Shown one piece after another: positions 36,552-56,577 of a stretch of 64,000 nt of DNA; positions within the stretch are counted from its first letter, which is position 1; every line of letters begins with the position of its first letter. The DNA lies in the NCBI RefSeq assembly GCF_900626155.1, contig NZ_LR130844.1, forward strand, positions 538,191 to 602,190. Direction: 5' to 3'. The notes beneath the pieces are model-generated. The model saw only the letters and a program-made list of their open reading frames with translations, did no database searches and was not told where the DNA came from. Source of the stretch: Anaerococcus vaginimassiliensis (lineage in GTDB: Bacteria; Bacillota; Clostridia; Tissierellales; Peptoniphilaceae). A program made the translations under genes and the position numbers.

Positions 36552-37562
36552 TTAATCAGCCCTCAAGGTAGCATATAATATCGCCTTTACTGCAGGTATT
36601 CTATTTTCTGTTTGGTCAAATACCATAGATTTAGCTGATCTAAATACTTTATCAGTCACTTCCATTCCATCAAAATCCATATCATTTGGTAATTGGTCTA
36701 GCACTTTTTGGGCAAGCTTTGATTTTTTATCATGAAAAGCTGGCAAGCAATGCATAAATATAGAATTGTCCTTAGTTTTCTCCATAACTTTATCATCTAC
36801 TCTGTAAGGATAAAGCTTGTAAATCCTATCTATTGGAACCTTATCAATCTCAGTTAGAGCTATCCACATATCAGTATAGATTATATCCGCTCCTTTGATG
36901 GCTGAGTCTAAATCTTCTGTGTAGGTCACCGAAGACTTGTTATCTTTGGCAAAATCTTTGGATAAGTCTATGAAATCTTTTTTTGGAAAGTATTCTTTAG
37001 GTCCACAGGCAGTGAAGTTAATACCTAACTTTGCACAAGTTATGGCTAGGGAGTTTGGCATGATATCTCCAGGATAACCCAAATAAACTAAATTGAGTCC
37101 ACGAAGATAGCCAAATTTCTCCTTTATAGTTAGCATATCTGATATCATCTGACTTGGGTGGGTCTTTTCTGTCATAGCATTATAAATTGGAACTTCTGTC
37201 ATATTTACTAATTTTTCTAGCATATCTTGCTTGTTGCCACGATAAACTATCCCATCATAATAACGGTCGAATACATTTATACTGTCTTCTATAGATTCCT
37301 TAGCTCCAAGTTTGCTTGTCTCAGAATCTATCAAACTCACTCCCATACCCAAATCAAAGGCAGCAACTTCAAAGGAAGTTCTAGTTCTGGTAGAAGCTTC
37401 TTCAAATAAAAGGATTAGGTTTTGTCCTTCCAAAAATTTGTGAGGCTTTTTTTCCTTTTTTAGTCTTTTAAAATCACTTGCCAAATCTATTAAATAAAGA
37501 ATCTCCTCTTCTGTAAAATCTTGCATAGCTAGTAGATTTCTATTTCTTAAATCAATTTCCAT
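36552..37562 (-). CDS. Ornithine carbamoyltransferase paralogue with altered substrate site
   Basis: A 336-residue aspartate/ornithine carbamoyltransferase family protein. The carbamoyl-phosphate site is intact: STRTRTS at 57-63, HPSQ at 135-138 and HCLPAFHD at 271-278. The ornithine-binding parts differ from the canonical enzyme encoded at 46679: the RNNMGNS segment is GDIMPNS (165-171), and the SMG loop is MWIALTE (232-238). It therefore probably transfers carbamoyl groups to an acceptor other than ornithine. It stands alone between a T-box operon and the deo operon. Confidence 0.82.
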   Translation of the reverse strand: MEIDLRNRNLLAMQDFTEEEILYLIDLASDFKRLKKEKKPHKFLEGQNLILLFEEASTRTRTSFEVAAFDLGMGVSLIDSETSKLGAKESIEDSINVFDRYYDGIVYRGNKQDMLEKLVNMTEVPIYNAMTEKTHPSQMISDMLTIKEKFGYLRGLNLVYLGYPGDIMPNSLAITCAKLGINFTACGPKEYFPKKDFIDLSKDFAKDNKSSVTYTEDLDSAIKGADIIYTDMWIALTEIDKVPIDRIYKLYPYRVDDKVMEKTKDNSIFMHCLPAFHDKKSKLAQKVLDQLPNDMDFDGMEVTDKVFRSAKSMVFDQTENRIPAVKAILYATLRAD

Positions 37563-46678: not shown

Positions 46679-47683
46679 TTATTTTAGTGTTGCATACATT
46701 ATAGCTTTGATTGTATGCATTCTGTTTTCAGCTTCATCAAATACTTTAGATTTGTGTGATAAAAATACATCTTCTGTAACTTCCATACCGTTTAGTTCGT
46801 ATTTGTCGCCGAATTTATCATAGATCTCTTTACCAACTGTTGTGTTTAAGTCGTGGAAAGATGGTAGGCAGTGCATGAAGATTGTATCTTCTTTAGCATT
46901 GTCCATTACCTTTTGGTTAACTTGGAATGGGTGAAGTTGTTCGATTCTATCAGCCCAAACTTCTTCTGGTTCTCCCATTGATACCCAAATATCTGTGTAA
47001 ATTACATCAGCATCTTTTGTGCTTGCCATTACATCTTCGCTAAATTCAACTTTTGAACCGTGTTTTTTAGCAAATTCTCTAGCTAGTTCTTGAACATCTT
47101 CTTCTGGCCATAGGTCTTTTGGTCCACAACCGATGAAGTTGATACCAAGTTTTGCACATGTTACTGCTAGGGAGTTACCCATATTGTTTCTGCAATCGCC
47201 CATATATACAAAGTTTAGACCACGAAGGCGTCCAAAGTTTTCTTTGATTGTAAGCATATCAGCGATCATTTGAGTTGGATGCCATTTGTCTGTTAGACCA
47301 TTCCATACTGGAACTCCTGCATTATCAGCTAACTCTTCTACTAAATCTTGTCTAAATCCTCTATATTCGATACCATCGTAGAATCTACCTAAAACTTTTG
47401 CAGTATCAGCTATTGATTCTTTCTTACCCATTTGGCTTGAACCTGGATCTAGATATGTTACTCCCATACCAAGGTCCATACCAGCAACTTCGAATGAGCA
47501 TCTTGTTCTTGTTGATGTTTTTTCGAATAATAATACTATGTTTTTACCTTGTAGATAGTTGTGTGGTGTTCCTGTTAATTTTAAGTTTTTAAACTCTTCT
47601 GATAGTTTGATTAAGTATAAAACTTCATCTTCTGTAAAATCTTTAATAGCTAATAAATTGCGTCCTCTTAAGTTAACTCCCAT
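46679..47683 (-). CDS. arcB: Ornithine carbamoyltransferase (catabolic type)
   Basis: A 334-residue OTC with all substrate motifs intact: STRTRCS at 57-63, HPTQ at about 135-138, RNNMGNS at about 165-171, the ornithine loop WVSMGE and HCLPSFHD near 271. It interconverts citrulline plus phosphate and ornithine plus carbamoyl phosphate. With carbamate kinase on the same transcript, it probably works in the catabolic direction. clpB lies 23 bp upstream. Confidence 0.93.
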   Translation of the reverse strand: MGVNLRGRNLLAIKDFTEDEVLYLIKLSEEFKNLKLTGTPHNYLQGKNIVLLFEKTSTRTRCSFEVAGMDLGMGVTYLDPGSSQMGKKESIADTAKVLGRFYDGIEYRGFRQDLVEELADNAGVPVWNGLTDKWHPTQMIADMLTIKENFGRLRGLNFVYMGDCRNNMGNSLAVTCAKLGINFIGCGPKDLWPEEDVQELAREFAKKHGSKVEFSEDVMASTKDADVIYTDIWVSMGEPEEVWADRIEQLHPFQVNQKVMDNAKEDTIFMHCLPSFHDLNTTVGKEIYDKFGDKYELNGMEVTEDVFLSHKSKVFDEAENRMHTIKAIMYATLK

Positions 47684-47706: not shown

Positions 47707-50211
47707 TTACATAATGCTAAAGGAAAAATTATCATCCTCTAACATAATTGTAAGCACGTTTGTACTATCCAAGTCATCTTGTAAGATTTTTCTAGAAACC
47801 ATGGTTACTATCTTATCATCAACCACTCTTCTAATCTCTCTAGCCCCAAATTCTTCATAATCTGAGAGGTCTACTATTTTTTCGATGACTTCATTTGTGT
47901 AGGCAAAGTTTACTCCAATTTCCCTAAAGTCATTTTTAACTTCTGCAAGGTAAATCTTTGTGATTTCCATAAGATCTTCATAAGATAAGGTATTAAACTT
48001 AACTATTGCATCAAGCCTATTTATAAATTCAGGCTTAAAGTATTGGTAAAGTTCATGCTTATATAGATTACTATCATCTTCCCTAGCCAATATATTAGAT
48101 GTCAAAATTATAATAGTATTGGTAAAGTCTATGGTTATGCCTCTATTATCAGTCAGCCTTCCCTCATCGAGTATTTGAAGAAGAATATCAAAAATCTGCT
48201 TGTTAGCCTTTTCTATCTCATCAAATAGAATTACCGAATAAGGATTTATTCTTACTTTTTCAGTAAGCTGGCCACCTTCTTCATAACCGACAAATCCTGG
48301 AGGAGCTCCAATAAACTTAGTTGTGGAATTTGAATCCATATACTCACTCATGTCAAATCTTATTAGGCTTTCTTCCCCTTCGTAGAGGGTATCAGCCAGA
48401 ACCTTTGCCAAATAGGTCTTACCAAGTCCTGTATTTCCTGTAAAAAGAAATGTCCCTATTGGCTTGTGCCTATTTTTCATGCCAACAGCCGTTCTTATTA
48501 TTGCATTTGATATCTTTTCTACGGCTTCTTGTTGACCTATTACTTTTTTACCCAGAGCCTTGTCTATATTTAAGATTTTTTCCTTCCTATCTTGATTCAA
48601 ATCCTCTACTGGTATCTTAGTTATCCTAGATATCAGCGTTTTGATATGATTTTCTTCAAGTTTTTCTATTTTGACAAATTCGTATTTCTTGTTTAGGTAG
48701 GATTTCTCTTCTTTTCTAAGCTCCGGAAGTTTTACCTTAGTAATTTTAGTATATTCCTCGAATTTATATTCATTTAGTAATCTTTTTTTGATAAATTCAA
48801 GCTCTCTTATATCGCTTCTTATCCTTCTTAGATCTTTTAGATTTTCTGTTTCTTCTTGTTTTATTTCTAGATTCTTATCGTAAAGCTTCTTTAGCTCATT
48901 TAACTTGTTTTTATTCTTATCGTCATCTTCAAGCTGTAGGCTTTCTTCCAATTCTAGAATATCTTCTCTTAAATCATCAAGACTATCCGGCGTATTTTCA
49001 AGCTTATTTTTAAGCATTGATGCCGCCTCATCCATAAGGTCTATTGCCTTATCAGGTAGCTTTCTGTCAGTTATATATCTATCGGATAGATCTACACAAG
49101 CCTTTATCGCCTCATCTGTTATTATAAGATTGTGAAAATTCTCGTAGTTAGTCTTTATTCCACGAAGAATATCATAAGATTCCTCGATACTTGGCTCTTT
49201 TATCAAAATCTTCTGGAAACGGCGTTCAAGTGCTCCGTCTTTTTCTATATGAGACCTGTATTCAGCAACAGTTGTCGCTCCTATTATAGTTACTTCTCCT
49301 CTGGATAGCTTTGGTTTTATGATATTTGAAATATCAATTCCACCTGAAGAGCTTCCTGCTCCAACTATTGTATGAATCTCATCAATAAATAGGATGATTT
49401 TTCCTTCAAACGAGGTTACTATGTCCATCAAATCTTTAACTCTTGATTCAAATTCACCTCTTAGACCAGTACCTGCCAATACACTTGATATATTTAGTGA
49501 AAATATTATCTTATCTTTTAGAAAATCTACCACATCTCCTTGGGCGATCTTTAGAGCTAGTCCCTCTACAACTGCAGATTTACCAACTCCAGGCTCGCCT
49601 ATTAGGATAGGGTTGTTTTTTATCCTTCTTGTTAGAATTTCAGATAATCTATCTACTTCATAATCCATGCCTATAACTGGATCAATTTTACCTTCTTTAG
49701 CTCTTTTGGTAAGGTCTATCCCATATTTATCAATTAGATCTCCTATTTTTTCGCTAAATCGTTCGCTAGTTTCTACTTCCTTTTCTTTGTTTACAAGATA
49801 TTCTTCACATTTTTCTTGCCTTAGGCCAACTTTTTCTAGGATATGTTTGCTAGTAGTCTTGCCTAGGTCAAAGAAAGCTAGAAATAGATGGCTTGTAGTT
49901 ATTTTCTCAGCGTATCTTTTCTTGGCATTTTCTTTGGCAATTAGCAAGGCACGTTGGTAATCTCTCGAAAAATAAAGCTTGCTAAGTCCATCATTTGACC
50001 TTAATTTTCCTATAGCTTTTGTTATTTCATCAGCTAAGTTATCTTTATCTACAGAAAATTCCTCAAGCATTGTATCTAGGACATGATTTTCTTGATCTGT
50101 TACAGACTTTAGTAGATGAAGGTCTGTTACTTCTTGATTTTTATTGAGGAGGGCGAGGTTTCTGGCTTCCTTAATCGCCATTGATGCCTTTAGTGAATAT
50201 ATATCTTTCAT
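47707..50211 (-). CDS. clpB: ClpB-type disaggregase AAA+ ATPase
   Basis: An 834-residue protein with an N-terminal Clp repeat region, two AAA+ modules (Walker A GEPGVGKSA near 205; second Walker A GNTGLGKT near 590) and an acidic coiled-coil insertion (about 400-520) corresponding to the ClpB middle domain. ClpB rescues aggregated proteins with DnaK; no ClpP-binding loop is evident. The Walker A2 GNTGLGKT differs slightly from the usual GPTGVGKT. It is placed between arcC (18 bp) and arcB (23 bp), an unusual operon setting. Confidence 0.85.
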   Translation of the reverse strand: MKDIYSLKASMAIKEARNLALLNKNQEVTDLHLLKSVTDQENHVLDTMLEEFSVDKDNLADEITKAIGKLRSNDGLSKLYFSRDYQRALLIAKENAKKRYAEKITTSHLFLAFFDLGKTTSKHILEKVGLRQEKCEEYLVNKEKEVETSERFSEKIGDLIDKYGIDLTKRAKEGKIDPVIGMDYEVDRLSEILTRRIKNNPILIGEPGVGKSAVVEGLALKIAQGDVVDFLKDKIIFSLNISSVLAGTGLRGEFESRVKDLMDIVTSFEGKIILFIDEIHTIVGAGSSSGGIDISNIIKPKLSRGEVTIIGATTVAEYRSHIEKDGALERRFQKILIKEPSIEESYDILRGIKTNYENFHNLIITDEAIKACVDLSDRYITDRKLPDKAIDLMDEAASMLKNKLENTPDSLDDLREDILELEESLQLEDDDKNKNKLNELKKLYDKNLEIKQEETENLKDLRRIRSDIRELEFIKKRLLNEYKFEEYTKITKVKLPELRKEEKSYLNKKYEFVKIEKLEENHIKTLISRITKIPVEDLNQDRKEKILNIDKALGKKVIGQQEAVEKISNAIIRTAVGMKNRHKPIGTFLFTGNTGLGKTYLAKVLADTLYEGEESLIRFDMSEYMDSNSTTKFIGAPPGFVGYEEGGQLTEKVRINPYSVILFDEIEKANKQIFDILLQILDEGRLTDNRGITIDFTNTIIILTSNILAREDDSNLYKHELYQYFKPEFINRLDAIVKFNTLSYEDLMEITKIYLAEVKNDFREIGVNFAYTNEVIEKIVDLSDYEEFGAREIRRVVDDKIVTMVSRKILQDDLDSTNVLTIMLEDDNFSFSIM

Positions 50212-50229: not shown

Positions 50230-51162
50230 TTACTTAACTATTTTTGTTCCTACTTTTCCTTCTAATCCATCCAAAGCTTTGTCTAGTGAAGTGATTATTG
50301 CTTCACCTTCTGGATTTTCTTCTAAGAATTTAAGACAAGCTTCTATTTTTGGTAACATAGATCCCTTAGCAAATTGGCCTTCTTCTATATATTTCTTGGC
50401 TTCATCTACGCTAATTTCTCTAAGTTCCTCTTGGTTTTCCTTTCCAAAATTGATATATACACTATCAACTGCAGTTAGGATTAAAAGTTTATCTGCATTT
50501 ATATCTGCTGATATTTTACTTGCAACAAAATCTTTATCAATTACAGCATCAACTCCAACAATAGTACCATCTTCATCAAATACTGGAATTCCACCACCGC
50601 CACCTGTAACTACAGCTGTATTATTTTCTAGCAAAGTTTTTAGGGTTTCTATTTCCTTTAACCTAACTGGTTTTGGACTTGCAACTACTCTTCTATAGCC
50701 TCTGCCTGCATCTTCTTTGAAAGTATAACCGTCTTCTTTTTCGATTCTTTCTGCTTCTTCTTTGCTATAGAATGTTCCTATTGGCTTAGTTGGATCTTTG
50801 AAGGCTGGGTCGTTCTTATCAACTTCTACTTGGCTAACTATTGTCACAACCTTCTTGTCGATCTTTCTTTTCTCAACTTCATTTTCAATTGCTTGTTGAA
50901 GGTGATAACCTATATAACCTTGGCTTAAGGCAACACATTCTACCAAAGGAAATTCTGGTATGCTTGTATCAATCTCACTTGCCTTAGATAATCCTAGGTT
51001 TATTACACCAACTTGTGGTCCATTTCCATGAACTATGGCTACATTTTCATAATTTTCTATAATATCTGCCAAGGCCTTAGAAGATCCCTTTACTGCCTCT
51101 AATTGCTCTTTTGGACTATTTCCTAGGGCGTTTCCACCCAATGCTACTACTATTGTCTTCAT
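50230..51162 (-). CDS. arcC: Carbamate kinase
   Basis: A 310-residue amino-acid-kinase-family enzyme, starting MKTIVVALGGNALG, with NGPQVG (about 47-52) and the GGGGGIPV loop (about 188-195) of carbamate kinase. It transfers phosphate from carbamoyl phosphate to ADP, giving ATP, carbon dioxide and ammonia. It supports a catabolic role for arcB downstream. Confidence 0.95.
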   Translation of the reverse strand: MKTIVVALGGNALGNSPKEQLEAVKGSSKALADIIENYENVAIVHGNGPQVGVINLGLSKASEIDTSIPEFPLVECVALSQGYIGYHLQQAIENEVEKRKIDKKVVTIVSQVEVDKNDPAFKDPTKPIGTFYSKEEAERIEKEDGYTFKEDAGRGYRRVVASPKPVRLKEIETLKTLLENNTAVVTGGGGGIPVFDEDGTIVGVDAVIDKDFVASKISADINADKLLILTAVDSVYINFGKENQEELREISVDEAKKYIEEGQFAKGSMLPKIEACLKFLEENPEGEAIITSLDKALDGLEGKVGTKIVK

Positions 51163-51204: not shown

Positions 51205-52617
51205 TTATTTCTTATTTTTTTGATCTAGCTTATAATAATTCTCTCCATTAAAGAATTCTTTCTTAATATCTTTTATCTCTCCGCTCATAGCTATAAGTCC
51301 TATCATATTAGGTATTACTACAAGTCCTAATGTAAAGTCTAAGAATACTCCAGCCTTTTCGAAAGATACAAATATTCCAAGAAGAATCATAAGTGATGCT
51401 ACAACTCTCATTATCTTACCAACCTTAGTACCAAATAGATATTCAGCTTGTTTTTCACAATAAAATACTATTACTATAATTGTTGATAATACAAATAAGA
51501 ATAAGCTTATTGATATTATGATTGATCCCGCTTGACCAAATATAGTGTTAAATGCTCTTTCAACTGCTACCGGTGCTAATTGATCGCTTTCTGCTTGGCT
51601 TAGACCTGGTTGCCATACTCCTGATAAAAGAACTGTTAGGGCTGATATTGTACAGACTATAATTGTATCTGCAAATACTTCAAATACTCCCCACAAACCT
51701 TGTCTTGCTGGATGATCTGTGGTAGCTGCAGCATGACCATATCCTGCAGAACCCATACCAGCTTCGTTAGAATAAACACCACGAGCAACACCCATAGATA
51801 TTACCTTAGATAAAGCAGCTCCACCAACTCCTCCAGCAACTGCTTTTGGATTGAAGGCACCTTTGAAAATATATCCAAGGACTCTTGGCACATCACCTAT
51901 GTGCATAATAATTATGATTATACCAAAAAGTATATATAAAGCTGCCATTATTGGAACTAGTTTTTCTGTAACTCTACCAATTTGTTTTACTCCACCAAAC
52001 ACTACAATTGAAACAATTATAAAAATAACTATGATAGCAATTGTTTTGATAATGTTTTCGTTTAAGTTAGTTGCAGCAAATACATTTTTAACAGGATTTG
52101 CTGCTGATAGAGTTTGAAGAGTAATTGATGGAAGGATTTCAATCATAAAGAAGAAAGCTGCCAAAGCTCCCATAGCCTTACCAAGACCACCCTTTAGTCC
52201 GTTCTTTAACATATAAGAACATCCACCAACGAAGTCTCCATCTTCATTCTTCTCCCTATATTTTATAGATAGAGCAACTTCTGCAAACTTTGTTCCTTGA
52301 CCAATTATTGCAGCTATCCACATCCAGAATACAGCTCCTGGACCTGCTGCAAATATAATAGTTGGAGCGACAACTATGTTTGCTGCTCCAATTGATGAAG
52401 CAAGAGCTGTGGTCATGGCTTGGAAGGCAGAAACTGTACCAGATCCTTCTTCATTTTTAGAAAACATCTTTCCAAAAGTTTGTCTCATGATATATGGGAA
52501 ATATTTTAATTGAATAAAGCCTGTTCTAATATTAATAATTAGCCCACCACCCATAACTAGGGCAAGCAGTGGCCATCCCCATAGCCATTCCGTAAACGAT
52601 TTTATAATTTCTAGCAT
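51205..52617 (-). CDS. AGCS-family amino acid symporter
   Basis: A 470-residue transporter related to the one at 18842 but clearly diverged. It has the N-terminal WGWP, FQAMTTALASSIGAANI (about 65-81), GVARGVYSNEAGMGSAGYGHAAATTDHPARQG landmark (written here only by family; starts near residue 272) and ten hydrophobic helices. It is first in the arcC-clpB-arcB transcript, so it may bring in the amino acid used by that pathway. Direct evidence for citrulline, ornithine or another substrate is lacking. Confidence 0.87.
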   Translation of the reverse strand: MLEIIKSFTEWLWGWPLLALVMGGGLIINIRTGFIQLKYFPYIMRQTFGKMFSKNEEGSGTVSAFQAMTTALASSIGAANIVVAPTIIFAAGPGAVFWMWIAAIIGQGTKFAEVALSIKYREKNEDGDFVGGCSYMLKNGLKGGLGKAMGALAAFFFMIEILPSITLQTLSAANPVKNVFAATNLNENIIKTIAIIVIFIIVSIVVFGGVKQIGRVTEKLVPIMAALYILFGIIIIIMHIGDVPRVLGYIFKGAFNPKAVAGGVGGAALSKVISMGVARGVYSNEAGMGSAGYGHAAATTDHPARQGLWGVFEVFADTIIVCTISALTVLLSGVWQPGLSQAESDQLAPVAVERAFNTIFGQAGSIIISISLFLFVLSTIIVIVFYCEKQAEYLFGTKVGKIMRVVASLMILLGIFVSFEKAGVFLDFTLGLVVIPNMIGLIAMSGEIKDIKKEFFNGENYYKLDQKNKK

Positions 52618-52971: not shown

Positions 52972-54210
52972 ATGATTCGTATAACTAAAAAGACAAATAT
53001 CCAAGATGAGTCTACTTATTTTGAGACAAATAAAAATAAACTTCCCCTAATAGATTTGGGAGATGAAATTTTCACCGAAAAGACAGAACCACTCCTTCAT
53101 ACAAATGCAAGGTTTTGGATCATAAAAAAGGGATCTGCCCTTGTTAACATCCAAGGAGAAGATGTAGAAATAAAAGAAGGATCTATGGTAGGGATCCTTC
53201 CTTGGTATTACACTCAGATAAAGGAAGTAACCGAAGATCTTCTTATGGATGTAGTTGTTTATGATTTAGACTTTGTAAATATCCTCTTTAAAAGAACTAA
53301 TGATTTATTTATGAAAGACTATTCCCTAAGCAAGTTAGTTTCTGACAATATTTATGTCACTCTTTCTAGCGAAGAAGAAAAGGAAGTAGCCTTTATCCTT
53401 GATAAGCTTAAAAATGAACTCGCCAAATACAAACAAGGTGACAAGTTTTCTAACCATATGATTTTTGTAAAGCTTATGGAACTTGTTGTGATATTTGAGA
53501 AAAATATAGATTATTCTAGTAAAAAAAAACTAAAAAATAAGCACGATATCCAAATTTTCCACTATATTTACTCTCATTTAAATGAAAATATTAATCTAAA
53601 AAATATATCTGAGAATTTCTATCTCAGTCAATCTCAGACCAGCAAGTATATAAAGGAAACTACAGGTCTAAGCTTTAGCTCGCTTGCATCTATGATGAAG
53701 CTCATTAAGCTAATGGGATATCTAAACTTTTCACAAATGAACCTAGAAGAACTTTCTGTTATATTGGGATTTAAAGATCCATCACATCTTTCCAAGTTTT
53801 TTAAGGCAAAGCTTGGGATAAATACTAGTGAATTTAAAAATAAAACTAACAACAATACAAAAAAAGTCATAGACTTAGCTAAAATGGAGGAGATAACTTC
53901 ATATCTATACAAGTACTATTATATGGAATTAAACCTTGAGGATTTGTCCATAAAATTTAGACTAAACCCTACAGAGATAAACAATTCCTTCGATTTTTAC
54001 CTAGATAAATCCTTTGATTCCTACTTAACTTATGTAAGGATTATAAATGCAGCCAAAATCCTTCTGATAAAAGATGATACGGTAACAGATATAGCCTATA
54101 CTGTTGGTTTCAATACGACCAAAACTTTTAATAGAAATTTTAAGAAAATCTATGGAATAAATCCCAGCGATTTTAGGAAAAAATTAATCTACCAAACCGA
54201 AATTATGTAA
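52972..54210 (+). CDS. AraC-family regulator with two HTH domains
   Basis: A 412-residue protein. The N-terminus (about 20-110) resembles a cupin sensor domain (HTNARFWIIKKGSALVNI). Two AraC-type DNA-binding domains follow: about 193-290 (LKNISENFYLSQSQTSKYIK, then HLSKFFKAKLGI) and about 305-405 (ISIKF-like LEDLSIKFRLNPTEI, then FNRNFKKIYGINPSDFRK). Normal family members have one. It is divergent from the AGCS-arc operon and faces the cyclodeaminase-like genes, which it may control. Confidence 0.85.
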   Translation: MIRITKKTNIQDESTYFETNKNKLPLIDLGDEIFTEKTEPLLHTNARFWIIKKGSALVNIQGEDVEIKEGSMVGILPWYYTQIKEVTEDLLMDVVVYDLDFVNILFKRTNDLFMKDYSLSKLVSDNIYVTLSSEEEKEVAFILDKLKNELAKYKQGDKFSNHMIFVKLMELVVIFEKNIDYSSKKKLKNKHDIQIFHYIYSHLNENINLKNISENFYLSQSQTSKYIKETTGLSFSSLASMMKLIKLMGYLNFSQMNLEELSVILGFKDPSHLSKFFKAKLGINTSEFKNKTNNNTKKVIDLAKMEEITSYLYKYYYMELNLEDLSIKFRLNPTEINNSFDFYLDKSFDSYLTYVRIINAAKILLIKDDTVTDIAYTVGFNTTKTFNRNFKKIYGINPSDFRKKLIYQTEIM

Positions 54211-54245: not shown

Positions 54246-54275
54246 AAAAATCCACCCCTGAAAGGTGGATTTTTC
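54246..54275. terminator. Terminator between araC-type and cyclodeaminase-like genes
   Basis: AATCCACC and GGTGGATT arms have A and T tracts on the two sides. Works for both convergent units. Confidence 0.88.
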
Positions 54276-54291
54276 TTATATTCTATGCTTT

Positions 54292-55398
54292 TTATTTTTG
54301 ATTTAAATTTCTATCAATATTTTTAACGAAGTCTTGAGAGTTTGTAACCATTGTTTTTGCAGTTAATGTTCCTCTGTCTGATAGTTTATTAACAGCAAAT
54401 TCTTGGATATCAACTGTATACATGAATACTGGTCTTATTTCTCCATTGATCTCATTGTAAGATGGAGTCATATTACCTGTAGCAATTGTAAATAGAATTG
54501 CTGATGACATGATTACTGTTGATGATTTTTTGATGTTTCTTCTCATCTCATCTTGAGCTTCGTATACATTGTTGTAAGTGTCATTAAAGGTATATCTATC
54601 TCTGATTGTTCCAGCTATTACTAGATTTACATTATTTCTAACCGCAGCTGCAACAAATCCCGTTTCTATTCCTTCTTTTTCTACATATTCTTTGATAGAA
54701 CCGTATTCGTTTACTCTGTTGATTACTTCATAGAAGTTTTCTCTTGTATTTTGGCTATTTAGATATTCTTCTTGACCTTCAACTGTCTTAAACTTAGCTC
54801 TTTCAAGGTCGTAAGCAACAGCTGCTGTACCACAGAATATCGCATTTGCATATCCATTTTCTACAAGTCTAGCTAGGGCATCGTCACTTTCTTCATCGAG
54901 AGATGTTGCTGTACCAAGTACCCAAGTTACATAGCCATTATTTTCTTTTTCATATTTTAGGATTTCATAAAGTTCGTCGTAGTCTTTAGAAAAGGCAGTT
55001 TCTCTTGATCTTCCTTCTCTAAATCCAAATGTAGCTTCTTCTTTGCTGGATTTATCTACGAAACCTTCTGTATAAACATAGATTCCTTCAGATCCGTCTT
55101 CTTTACGTCCAACAACGACTTTGTCACCTTTTTTAAGGTTTCTAAATTCTACAACATCAACTCTTTCATTTCCTGGTTCATCTATTGCTACTGCAACAGT
55201 ATCCATTCTAGATTGTAGGGCTAGAACCCATTTATCATTTATCTTGAAATATTCTGGGAAAACTGATAGAGCGTGATAGCCTTCTGGGCTTATTCCGTCT
55301 TCTTCTACTTCTACAAGTTTAGCATTTGGAAATTTATCAAATTTCTCATCAAATTCTTTAGGGAAGTATTTTGGCATTTCAAATTTATAGTCCATCAT
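54292..55398 (-). CDS. Diverged paralogue of alternative-type ornithine cyclodeaminase (TIGR00300-like)
   Basis: A 368-residue homologue of the adjacent upstream protein, with the same layout (REFRNLKKGDKVV-type N-domain, then a Rossmann-like C-domain). The motif GGNAMATHDLE of the partner reads CGTAAVAYDLE here (189-199), and GSIRDDGPLPEV is replaced by GTIRDRYTFND (263-273). Family-defining residues are thus lost, which suggests a structural or regulatory subunit or a new specificity. Its ATG directly follows the stop of the upstream gene. Confidence 0.75.
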   Translation of the reverse strand: MMDYKFEMPKYFPKEFDEKFDKFPNAKLVEVEEDGISPEGYHALSVFPEYFKINDKWVLALQSRMDTVAVAIDEPGNERVDVVEFRNLKKGDKVVVGRKEDGSEGIYVYTEGFVDKSSKEEATFGFREGRSRETAFSKDYDELYEILKYEKENNGYVTWVLGTATSLDEESDDALARLVENGYANAIFCGTAAVAYDLERAKFKTVEGQEEYLNSQNTRENFYEVINRVNEYGSIKEYVEKEGIETGFVAAAVRNNVNLVIAGTIRDRYTFNDTYNNVYEAQDEMRRNIKKSSTVIMSSAILFTIATGNMTPSYNEINGEIRPVFMYTVDIQEFAVNKLSDRGTLTAKTMVTNSQDFVKNIDRNLNQK

Positions 55399-56577
55399 CT
55401 ACTCCTCTCTTCCTTGGCTCATTGCCTTTTTATCTTCAATAGAAGCTTCACTGCTTGCTTCTTCTACTTCGTAAACGTGTTCTTCGTCATAAGATAGGTA
55501 TTCTTCTGGAACAAGTTCTTTTTCTAAGTTCACTACAAAGTCTTGAACATTTGTTACAAGAGTTCTTACAGCGATTCCTTCTCTAGCAGCAGATACTTTT
55601 CTAACTGCGTTTTCTGTAACATCCACTGTAAAGATAAATACTGGAACTATATTGCCATTTTCATCTACTCTATAGCTTGTAGCTGTCTCTGCAGTTGAAG
55701 CTGAGTGGAGGGTTGTAGCAAGACAAATAATAAGATTTGACTTATCTGTAGCAACTCTTACATTGTCCAAAGAGTCGTATACATTGCCTGTAACTTCTGG
55801 AAGTGGTCCATCATCTCTGATAGATCCAGCTAGAGTAATTGGAACTCCAAGTCTGTTTAGAGTTTTAACGAATCCATCACGAACATTTCCTTCGTTTATG
55901 AATTCATCTATAGAACCAACTTTTCTTATAGCATTTAGTGTATCCAAGTGGTTGTAGTGACCTAGTGGATCAGATTCTTGAGTATAAATATCTTGACCAA
56001 GAGCTGTGTTTAAATAACCACCTTCAAGGTCGTGAGTAGCCATAGCATTTCCACCAAGAAGAGCTTGAACGTATCCGTTTTCTGCAAGTCTTGATAGACC
56101 ATTTCTTGTATCATAGTCAAATACAACAGCAGGTCCTAGAACCCAAGTAATATTTCCTTCTGATTCTTTTTCAGCTCTAAGTAATTCGTAAAGAAGTTTG
56201 TAGTTTGATGTATTTGATGCCTCAACAAAATCTCCTCCACGAGAAAAAACTTCCTCAGAGAAACCTTGTGCATATTTTAAAACACCTTCACTACCATCAG
56301 TAACACTTGCGATAACTACCTTATCACCTTTTTTAAGATTTCTAAACTCTCTTACAAAAACCTTTCCATCTTCAACAACTGCAACACAGTCTTGAGAACT
56401 TCTTTCTGGAATTTGCCAAGATCCATCAACCTTATAATAAGTTGGCATGTGGCTTGTTAAATAAAAACCCTTTGGGCTTACACCATCTTTCGTAACTTCT
56501 GCTGTAGTTACATCTTTAGCAGAAGCGTATTTTTCTTCCGAAAAATTAGGTGGTGTAAATAATAAGTCTTCTCTCAT
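55399..56577 (-). CDS. Alternative-type ornithine cyclodeaminase homologue (TIGR00300-like)
   Basis: A 392-residue protein of the family that includes archaeal TIGR00300 proteins and the C-terminal part of cyanobacterial ArgZ/AgrE. Conserved stretches are GGNAMATHDLE (175-185), GHYNHLDTLNAIRKVGSI (206-223) and GSIRDDGPLPEV (251-262). Characterised relatives convert ornithine to proline and ammonia with NAD. The acidic tail of about 40 residues is extra. Upstream gene of the pair and near arcB, which makes ornithine; the pathway link is inference. Confidence 0.82.
   Translation of the reverse strand: MREDLLFTPPNFSEEKYASAKDVTTAEVTKDGVSPKGFYLTSHMPTYYKVDGSWQIPERSSQDCVAVVEDGKVFVREFRNLKKGDKVVIASVTDGSEGVLKYAQGFSEEVFSRGGDFVEASNTSNYKLLYELLRAEKESEGNITWVLGPAVVFDYDTRNGLSRLAENGYVQALLGGNAMATHDLEGGYLNTALGQDIYTQESDPLGHYNHLDTLNAIRKVGSIDEFINEGNVRDGFVKTLNRLGVPITLAGSIRDDGPLPEVTGNVYDSLDNVRVATDKSNLIICLATTLHSASTAETATSYRVDENGNIVPVFIFTVDVTENAVRKVSAAREGIAVRTLVTNVQDFVVNLEKELVPEEYLSYDEEHVYEVEEASSEASIEDKKAMSQGREE

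Follow-up and report, generated by a model that had tools for sequence, protein, structure and literature searches.

Adjacent ornithine cyclodeaminase paralogues with complementary residue losses suggest a heteromeric enzyme with a split active site

The closest described relatives of the genes treated here are single-chain proteins. NCBIfam already catalogues the single-chain form as family NF052526, under the name putative nickel-pincer-nucleotide (NPN)-dependent ornithine cyclodeaminase, ODC_var, and more distant relatives belong to TIGR00300 and share the AgrE-ArgZ C-terminal domain. Solved relatives found by sequence match in the PDB are 3c2q, 6lrf-6lrh and 6juy; we take the entries 6lrf-6lrh and 6juy to be AgrE and ArgZ, whose C-terminal parts are the matching ones. 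These names agree with reference entries in PMC11659421 and PMC8262935. Here we describe a stretch of 64,000 nucleotides from Anaerococcus vaginimassiliensis (contig NZ_LR130844.1; the whole stretch is called the window below), in which two abutting genes of this type, A and B, lie side by side. What sets the pair apart, judged from sequence comparison, is an active site that appears to be split between two paralogues that have degenerated reciprocally. The pair occupies the following positions.

55399..56577, minus strand: subunit A, the upstream gene, 392 aa; the Rossmann-side conserved set is kept, the N-/C-terminal set mostly gone.
54292..55398, minus strand: subunit B, the downstream gene, 368 aa; the N-/C-terminal conserved set is kept, the Rossmann-side set mostly gone.
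55393..55410, minus strand: the A/B junction; the A stop codon TAG followed by ATGATG, with zero gap and a shared frame.

An earlier note on this DNA had described two abutting open reading frames with an ArgZ-like C-terminal fold, and their coordinates, mutual identity and Pfam scores bear this out. A and B are 38% identical across 362 aligned positions (E 9e-75) and are thus paralogues. Both pass PF21570 (ArgZ-like_C_2nd) at 149.8 bits for A and 144.7 for B, with a gathering cut-off of 27. For PF21571 (ArgZ-like_C_1st, cut-off 27), B lies above at 31 bits and A below at 19.6 bits, which fits the loss of the N-terminal set from A. Against NF052526, A scores 416.8 and B 436.4 bits, both slightly under the cut-off of 440 bits, which the A and B proteins of several relatives exceed. 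Both fit this family better than TIGR00300, where 177.2 bits for A and 161.6 for B leave the cut-off of 410.8 unmet. All four motifs quoted in the note are present in the sequences: A keeps GGNAMATHDLE and GSIRDDGPLPEV, and the counterparts in B are altered to CGTAAVAYDLE and GTIRDRYTFND.

To compare the two genes with their single-copy relatives, we aligned 41 proteins each of A and B with two further groups: S, 88 single-copy proteins of NF052526, and D, 30 distant proteins of the TIGR00300-like type, among them L117, the lone copy of genome G446. The S rows were 80 proteins found by other means than the class search, minus 5 with lengths outside 340-420 aa, which left 75, plus 13 others. 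A column was called conserved when at least 95% of S agreed, and kept when at least 95% of A or of B did. Of 101 S-conserved columns, 34 were kept by A only, 41 by B only, 17 by both and 9 by neither. Neither A nor B therefore holds all S-invariant residues in one chain, and taken together they hold 92 of the 101. Retention in A was negatively associated with retention in B (Fisher P = 8.7e-7). As controls, retention in A and in D was positively associated (P = 0.0097), and that in B and D showed no association (P = 1.0). When the comparison was restricted to the 50 columns that also reach at least 95% in D, 49 survived (both 12, A only 20, B only 17).

The kept sets form blocks along the protein. 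B keeps the N-terminal part, A keeps the first half of the Rossmann domain, and B keeps most of the remainder, with only 5 label switches; shuffled labels averaged 37, and in 20,000 shuffles the number never fell that low. At the A-only columns, A has an entropy of 0.01 bits and B one of 1.42 bits; at the B-only columns, B has 0.01 bits and A 1.47 bits. The division also holds in each of the 41 pairs, where A keeps 33-34 of the 34 A-set positions and B keeps 39-41 of the 41 B-set positions. In the window, A has 34/34 of the A set and 14/41 of the B set, and B has 41/41 of the B set and 11/34 of the A set. The A set (A numbering) includes P149, F153, N177, A178, H182, E185, L193, GHYxH at 206-210, DGP at 256-258, A287 and H291. 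The B set (B numbering) includes E49, Y50, R64, M65, D66, R86, R98, F124, F126, R127, R132, Y279, Q282, R286, A306, G308, N309, P312, R322, F334, K338, L339, D341 and G343. Three histidines of A (H182, H210 and H291) are conserved in S and D, and all three of these deep invariants are lost in B, although the third is still present in 15% of B proteins. The lysine K338 of B is invariant across S, D and B.

These losses bear directly on how the two genes may divide their work. If A were a complete active enzyme and B its degenerate regulatory or stabilising partner, the disappearance of the best-known motifs from B, including the three histidines, and the strict pairing of the two genes (39/39) would be expected. 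However, A is also incomplete: 41 positions kept by B are no longer conserved in A proteins, among them Arg, Met, Asp, Phe and Lys residues that are invariant in B, and a regulatory partner would have no need for exactly the positions that A has lost. Selection is also stronger on B than on A, as described below. We regard this explanation as improbable; A as a complete enzyme was a candidate that we rejected on its loss of B-set positions.

We examined selection on the two genes using NG86 estimates of omega. Values for B were 0.015-0.084 (10 of 12 comparisons) and values for A were 0.054-0.166 (11 of 12), with the remaining 3 of 24 not computable where synonymous divergence (dS) was saturated. 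Omega was lower in B than in A in all 9 comparisons computable for both, several of which had dS >1. The A proteins form one clade and the B proteins another, each with full support, and the distance matrices of A and B are correlated (Mantel r = 0.95, 41 pairs). By these measures neither gene shows signs of decay, and B is the more constrained of the two. The loss of signature motifs from B might have marked a recent duplicate heading for loss, but the low omega of B, together with a single clade of 40 B proteins that spans 12 genera of the bacterial family and one genome of another family, leaves this explanation with almost no likelihood, and B as a decaying copy was ruled out on omega and conservation. 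In-frame TGA codons in two relatives (L031 and L040) were also considered as a special feature and set aside, as the open reading frames there run to full length, at 369 and 360 aa, and the stops are the gene ends.

Subunits of an obligate complex should be encoded together, and we investigated how frequently A and B co-occur. In the genus of the window, 16 of 31 genomes match the protein family, each with exactly two copies, which are adjacent. Across the bacterial family, 43 of 130 genomes match: 39 carry the adjacent pair and 4 carry one lone copy of the distant type, scoring 274-288 bits. Among the 43 matching genomes of the 130 searched, there was no lone A and no lone B. We retrieved 38 further pairs from the bacterial family and 1 from another family, which with the window gives 40 pairs, and in 40/40 the order is A then B on one strand. 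Measured to the leftmost possible B start, their junctions span -89 to +7 nt, and the commonest is TAATG (14 pairs). A 41st pair (L149), from a scan of named genomes, also has the order A then B, with a gap of 10 nt.

Among 391 genomes drawn from the class, 4 contain the pair: the window genome, two family members and G054, from another family. In a draw of 398 genomes of the phylum, two full-length copies were found in the window genome only; G641 and G814 had two or three short fragments of 32-184 bits. Loci were available for part of the matches in this phylum draw. Within the family of G054, the pair is present in 1 of 12 genomes, and there it adjoins arcB, arcC, agcS, CD0519-type and AraC-type genes. 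This arc-type neighbourhood suggests that the G054 copy was transferred as a unit, presumably from elsewhere.

One could also suppose that A and B are two separate homomeric enzymes that have acquired new, differing activities and are merely co-transcribed, which would agree with each gene having a conserved set of its own in different blocks of the sequence. Against this, neither a lone A nor a lone B occurs among the 43 matching family genomes of the 130 searched; the 80 loci retained in the named-genome scan divide into 6 pairs and 74 single genes, and the single genes score about equally against A and against B. Moreover, the retained positions are old invariants of the family instead of novel ones, and between them A and B cover almost all of the ancestral set (49 of the 50 deep columns). 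We therefore consider separate enzymes unlikely.

A and B are always encoded together, as expected of the subunits of a heteromeric enzyme. The earlier note had named consistent co-occurrence as one sign of a heteromer, and both genes are present, adjacent and in the same order in 39/39 genomes of the bacterial family and 16/16 of the genus. In relatives that carry A, the second gene is neither missing nor randomly decayed, being paired in all 39 and under purifying selection. With the fixed gene order and purifying selection on both genes, the heteromer part of that note's proposal is well supported; its picture of one active copy helped by a degenerate or regulatory one is not, since A and B have lost different halves of the conserved set and B evolves more slowly.

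A heteromer of some kind is likely. We further favour, with less assurance, an obligate heteromer in which A and B would form one composite active site, with Rossmann-side residues from A and N- and C-terminal residues from B. The site would be shared between chains because a site within one chain would leave neither A nor B with one. The ancestor would have been a single-chain, presumably homo-oligomeric ornithine cyclodeaminase of the NF052526 type whose active site spanned the subunit interface. One chain would have contributed the Rossmann-side residues, namely the three invariant histidines, the asparagine and the DGP loop, and the other the N- and C-terminal residues, namely arginine, aspartate, methionine, phenylalanine and lysine. 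Once the gene had duplicated, one site of the reciprocal two could have been given up, with A retaining the Rossmann side and B the other. The A-B unit would then have one complete composite site and one dead site, and either chain alone would be inactive. Translation of the two genes may be coupled, as the purine-rich AGAGAGGAG immediately before the A stop codon is compatible with this. A single A-B read-through product was rejected; the two genes share a frame in the window, whereas in other pairs they do not.

In the proposed reaction, L-ornithine would be converted to L-proline and ammonia through a hidden redox step on the NPN cofactor, with the histidine cluster of A holding the cofactor and B supplying residues that bind the substrate or close the site. 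If the pair requires this cofactor, genomes that carry it should tend to encode larB, larC and larE. Counting LarE and LarB only when above the curated cut-offs, we found all three in 31 of 39 pair genomes compared to 21 of 91 other genomes of the bacterial family (P = 2.7e-9, uncorrected for kinship). In the genus, all three were present in 16/16 pair genomes and 1/15 others, and the window genome has larB, larC and larE.

The cofactor and substrate can be questioned while the heteromer stands: the cofactor might not be NPN (for example NAD(P), a metal-free mechanism or an imported cofactor), or the substrate might not be ornithine. This alternative overlaps the composite-site heteromer and differs from it on these two points only. 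In its favour are seven pair genomes that lack LarB, LarC and LarE and still have intact residue sets, the word "putative" in the NCBIfam label, and 15 of the 39 relatives with no arcB homologue in the retrieved stretch, although a few of these stretches are short. On the other hand, lar genes lie inside the retrieved stretch in 5 of 39 relatives, and in three of them (L082, L085 and L091) larE-larB-larC directly follow the pair. In addition, 14 pair genomes have larB, larC and larE without LarA, which makes the pair a candidate client of the cofactor. Of the 31 genus genomes, 3 have full-length PrdA (D-proline reductase); they are the very genomes with lar genes immediately after the pair, and they have no LarA. 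We consider a different cofactor or substrate the less likely case. NPN is probably the cofactor of the pair, and the naming of the family and the neighbourhood make conversion of ornithine to proline its probable reaction.

Several observations weigh against the composite-site heteromer and its link to NPN. Seven pair genomes (completeness 76-99%) have no LarB, LarC or LarE, a misfit with simple NPN dependence: G326, G414, G430, G431 and G432 of genus g9, and G444 and G445 of genus g228. These seven keep all 34 A-set and 41 B-set positions. An eighth pair genome, G457 (68% complete), has LarC only, and G444 has a LarA homologue without NPN genes. With regard to the alignment, 9 of the 101 conserved columns are kept in neither chain. 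Furthermore, two A-type peptides served as seeds for the scan that supplied 69 of the 88 S rows, so these rows favour A-set columns. The remaining 19, obtained with a hidden Markov model alone, give 91 columns (A only 27, B only 35, both 16, neither 13; P = 7.5e-4), so the unbiased result is the same in direction but weaker. For the order of descent, the approximately unbiased (AU) test on a tree of 18 proteins each from A and B, 36 of the 88 in S and 10 of the 30 in D gave 0.375 for A and B as sisters and 0.382 for S with A, and decides for neither. Finally, both window proteins narrowly miss the curated NF052526 cut-off. A possible reconciliation, which we put forward tentatively, is a split-site heteromer that may depend on NPN, in which the g9 and g228 lineages, where no NPN synthesis genes were found, import NPN as one would a vitamin or use another cofactor at the same site.

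Genomes without the pair also bear on the range of NPN clients. Eleven genomes of the bacterial family have larB, larC and larE with no LarA match, pair or lone cyclodeaminase homologue (G121, G419, G420, G421, G422, G423 and G425 of genus g3, and G441, G443, G455 and G471), and these may contain another NPN client. According to PMC11796402, approximately 15% of the genomes analysed there, many cyanobacteria among them, have larB, larC and larE without larA, and clients other than LarA are inferred. The NF052526-type family is a natural candidate for such a client. Separately, LarC was matched as two consecutive pieces in 16 of 17 LarC-bearing genomes of the genus (for example, G000:C1:650522-651699), and L085 has LarC1 and LarC2. 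Two pieces would fit either a LarC made by frameshifting or two chains.

The remaining features near the pair in the window are as follows.

54246..54274, listed on the plus strand: terminator-like hairpin of 11 pairs in the gap where B and the AraC-type gene converge.
52972..54210, plus strand: AraC-type regulator, convergent with the pair; homologues lie near the pair in 14/39 relatives.
51205..52617, minus strand: AgcS-type sodium:amino-acid symporter, a neighbour.
50230..51162, minus strand: arcC, carbamate kinase; TIGR00746 381.8 bits, cut-off 358.25.
47707..50211, minus strand: ClpB-like AAA+ ATPase, under the ClpB cut-off; near the pair in 21/39 relatives.
46679..47683, minus strand: arcB, ornithine carbamoyltransferase; TIGR00658 409.5 bits, cut-off 280.85.

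Proximity to arcB and arcC had been the reason given in the earlier note for a route from ornithine to proline. To examine this in relatives, we used 39 retrieved stretches of 9-18 kb around the pair, which contain an arcB homologue in 24, arcC in 16, agcS in 17, a CD0519/CD1768-type membrane protein in 17 and the ClpB-like gene in 21. The 74 single-copy loci, which have shorter flanks, have arcB at 3 and arcC at 1. The proximity therefore holds in many relatives. In the window, however, the pair and the agcS-arcC-clpB-like-arcB genes are probably not one operon, because the AraC-type gene and the hairpin lie between them. The hairpin count is statistically weak (2 terminator-like sites in the stretch compared to a shuffle mean of 1.1, slightly above), and promoter-like sites were no more frequent than in shuffles.

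The window genome has an arcA homologue elsewhere (452.7 bits, cut-off 489.1) and no PrdA match. In this genome the pair could route ornithine from the arginine deiminase pathway to proline for synthesis. The window also has a second ornithine carbamoyltransferase paralogue at 36552-37562 (331 bits to TIGR00658), 9 kb from arcB at 46679-47683 and beside genes that look like nucleoside catabolism. The ClpB-like ATPase (47707-50211) recurs beside the pair and the arc genes, an unexpected companion for an amino-acid catabolic cluster. In genus g9, the retrieved stretches (L093-L096 and L098) have no arcB-cluster gene. At 5 of 6 g9 loci, the pair is preceded by a short gene on the opposite strand, encoding some 91-96 aa; the one at L093 gave no match in NCBIfam at E 1e-5.

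Among the open-access matches listed, none describes the two-gene form; most subscription papers fall outside this coverage. In the open-access literature we found no paper linking ornithine cyclodeaminase with the nickel-pincer nucleotide, and none naming TIGR00300 among the open-access matches listed for ornithine cyclodeaminase or TIGR00300. If the composite-site heteromer is correct, the pair would be a clean natural example of a duplicated enzyme turned into an obligate heteromer through reciprocal half-site loss. It would also sort the conserved residues of this poorly understood family into two groups expected to face each other across an interface. Should the NPN link hold as well, a heteromeric client would be added to a cofactor whose users beyond LarA are largely unknown. 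For annotation, automatic tools would label either gene alone an ornithine cyclodeaminase.

Compared to the single-chain form of NF052526, A and B each match the family over nearly their full length; the difference is that single-copy members carry both residue sets, whereas here two genes carry half each. With TIGR00300 and the AgrE-ArgZ proteins, the pair shares the ArgZ-like Rossmann domain and the deep invariants common to the TIGR00300-like rows. Those proteins are single chains with both sets, however, and A and B fall far under their cut-off. The arrangement itself resembles heterodimeric ABC exporters and trypanosome deoxyhypusine synthase with its paralogue, in which one composite site works and one is degenerate. 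The folds and reactions of those systems are unrelated to those of A and B, and the likeness of the pair is drawn from its sequences. What the three would have in common is paralogous subunits, composite sites at the interface and only one kind of site left working.

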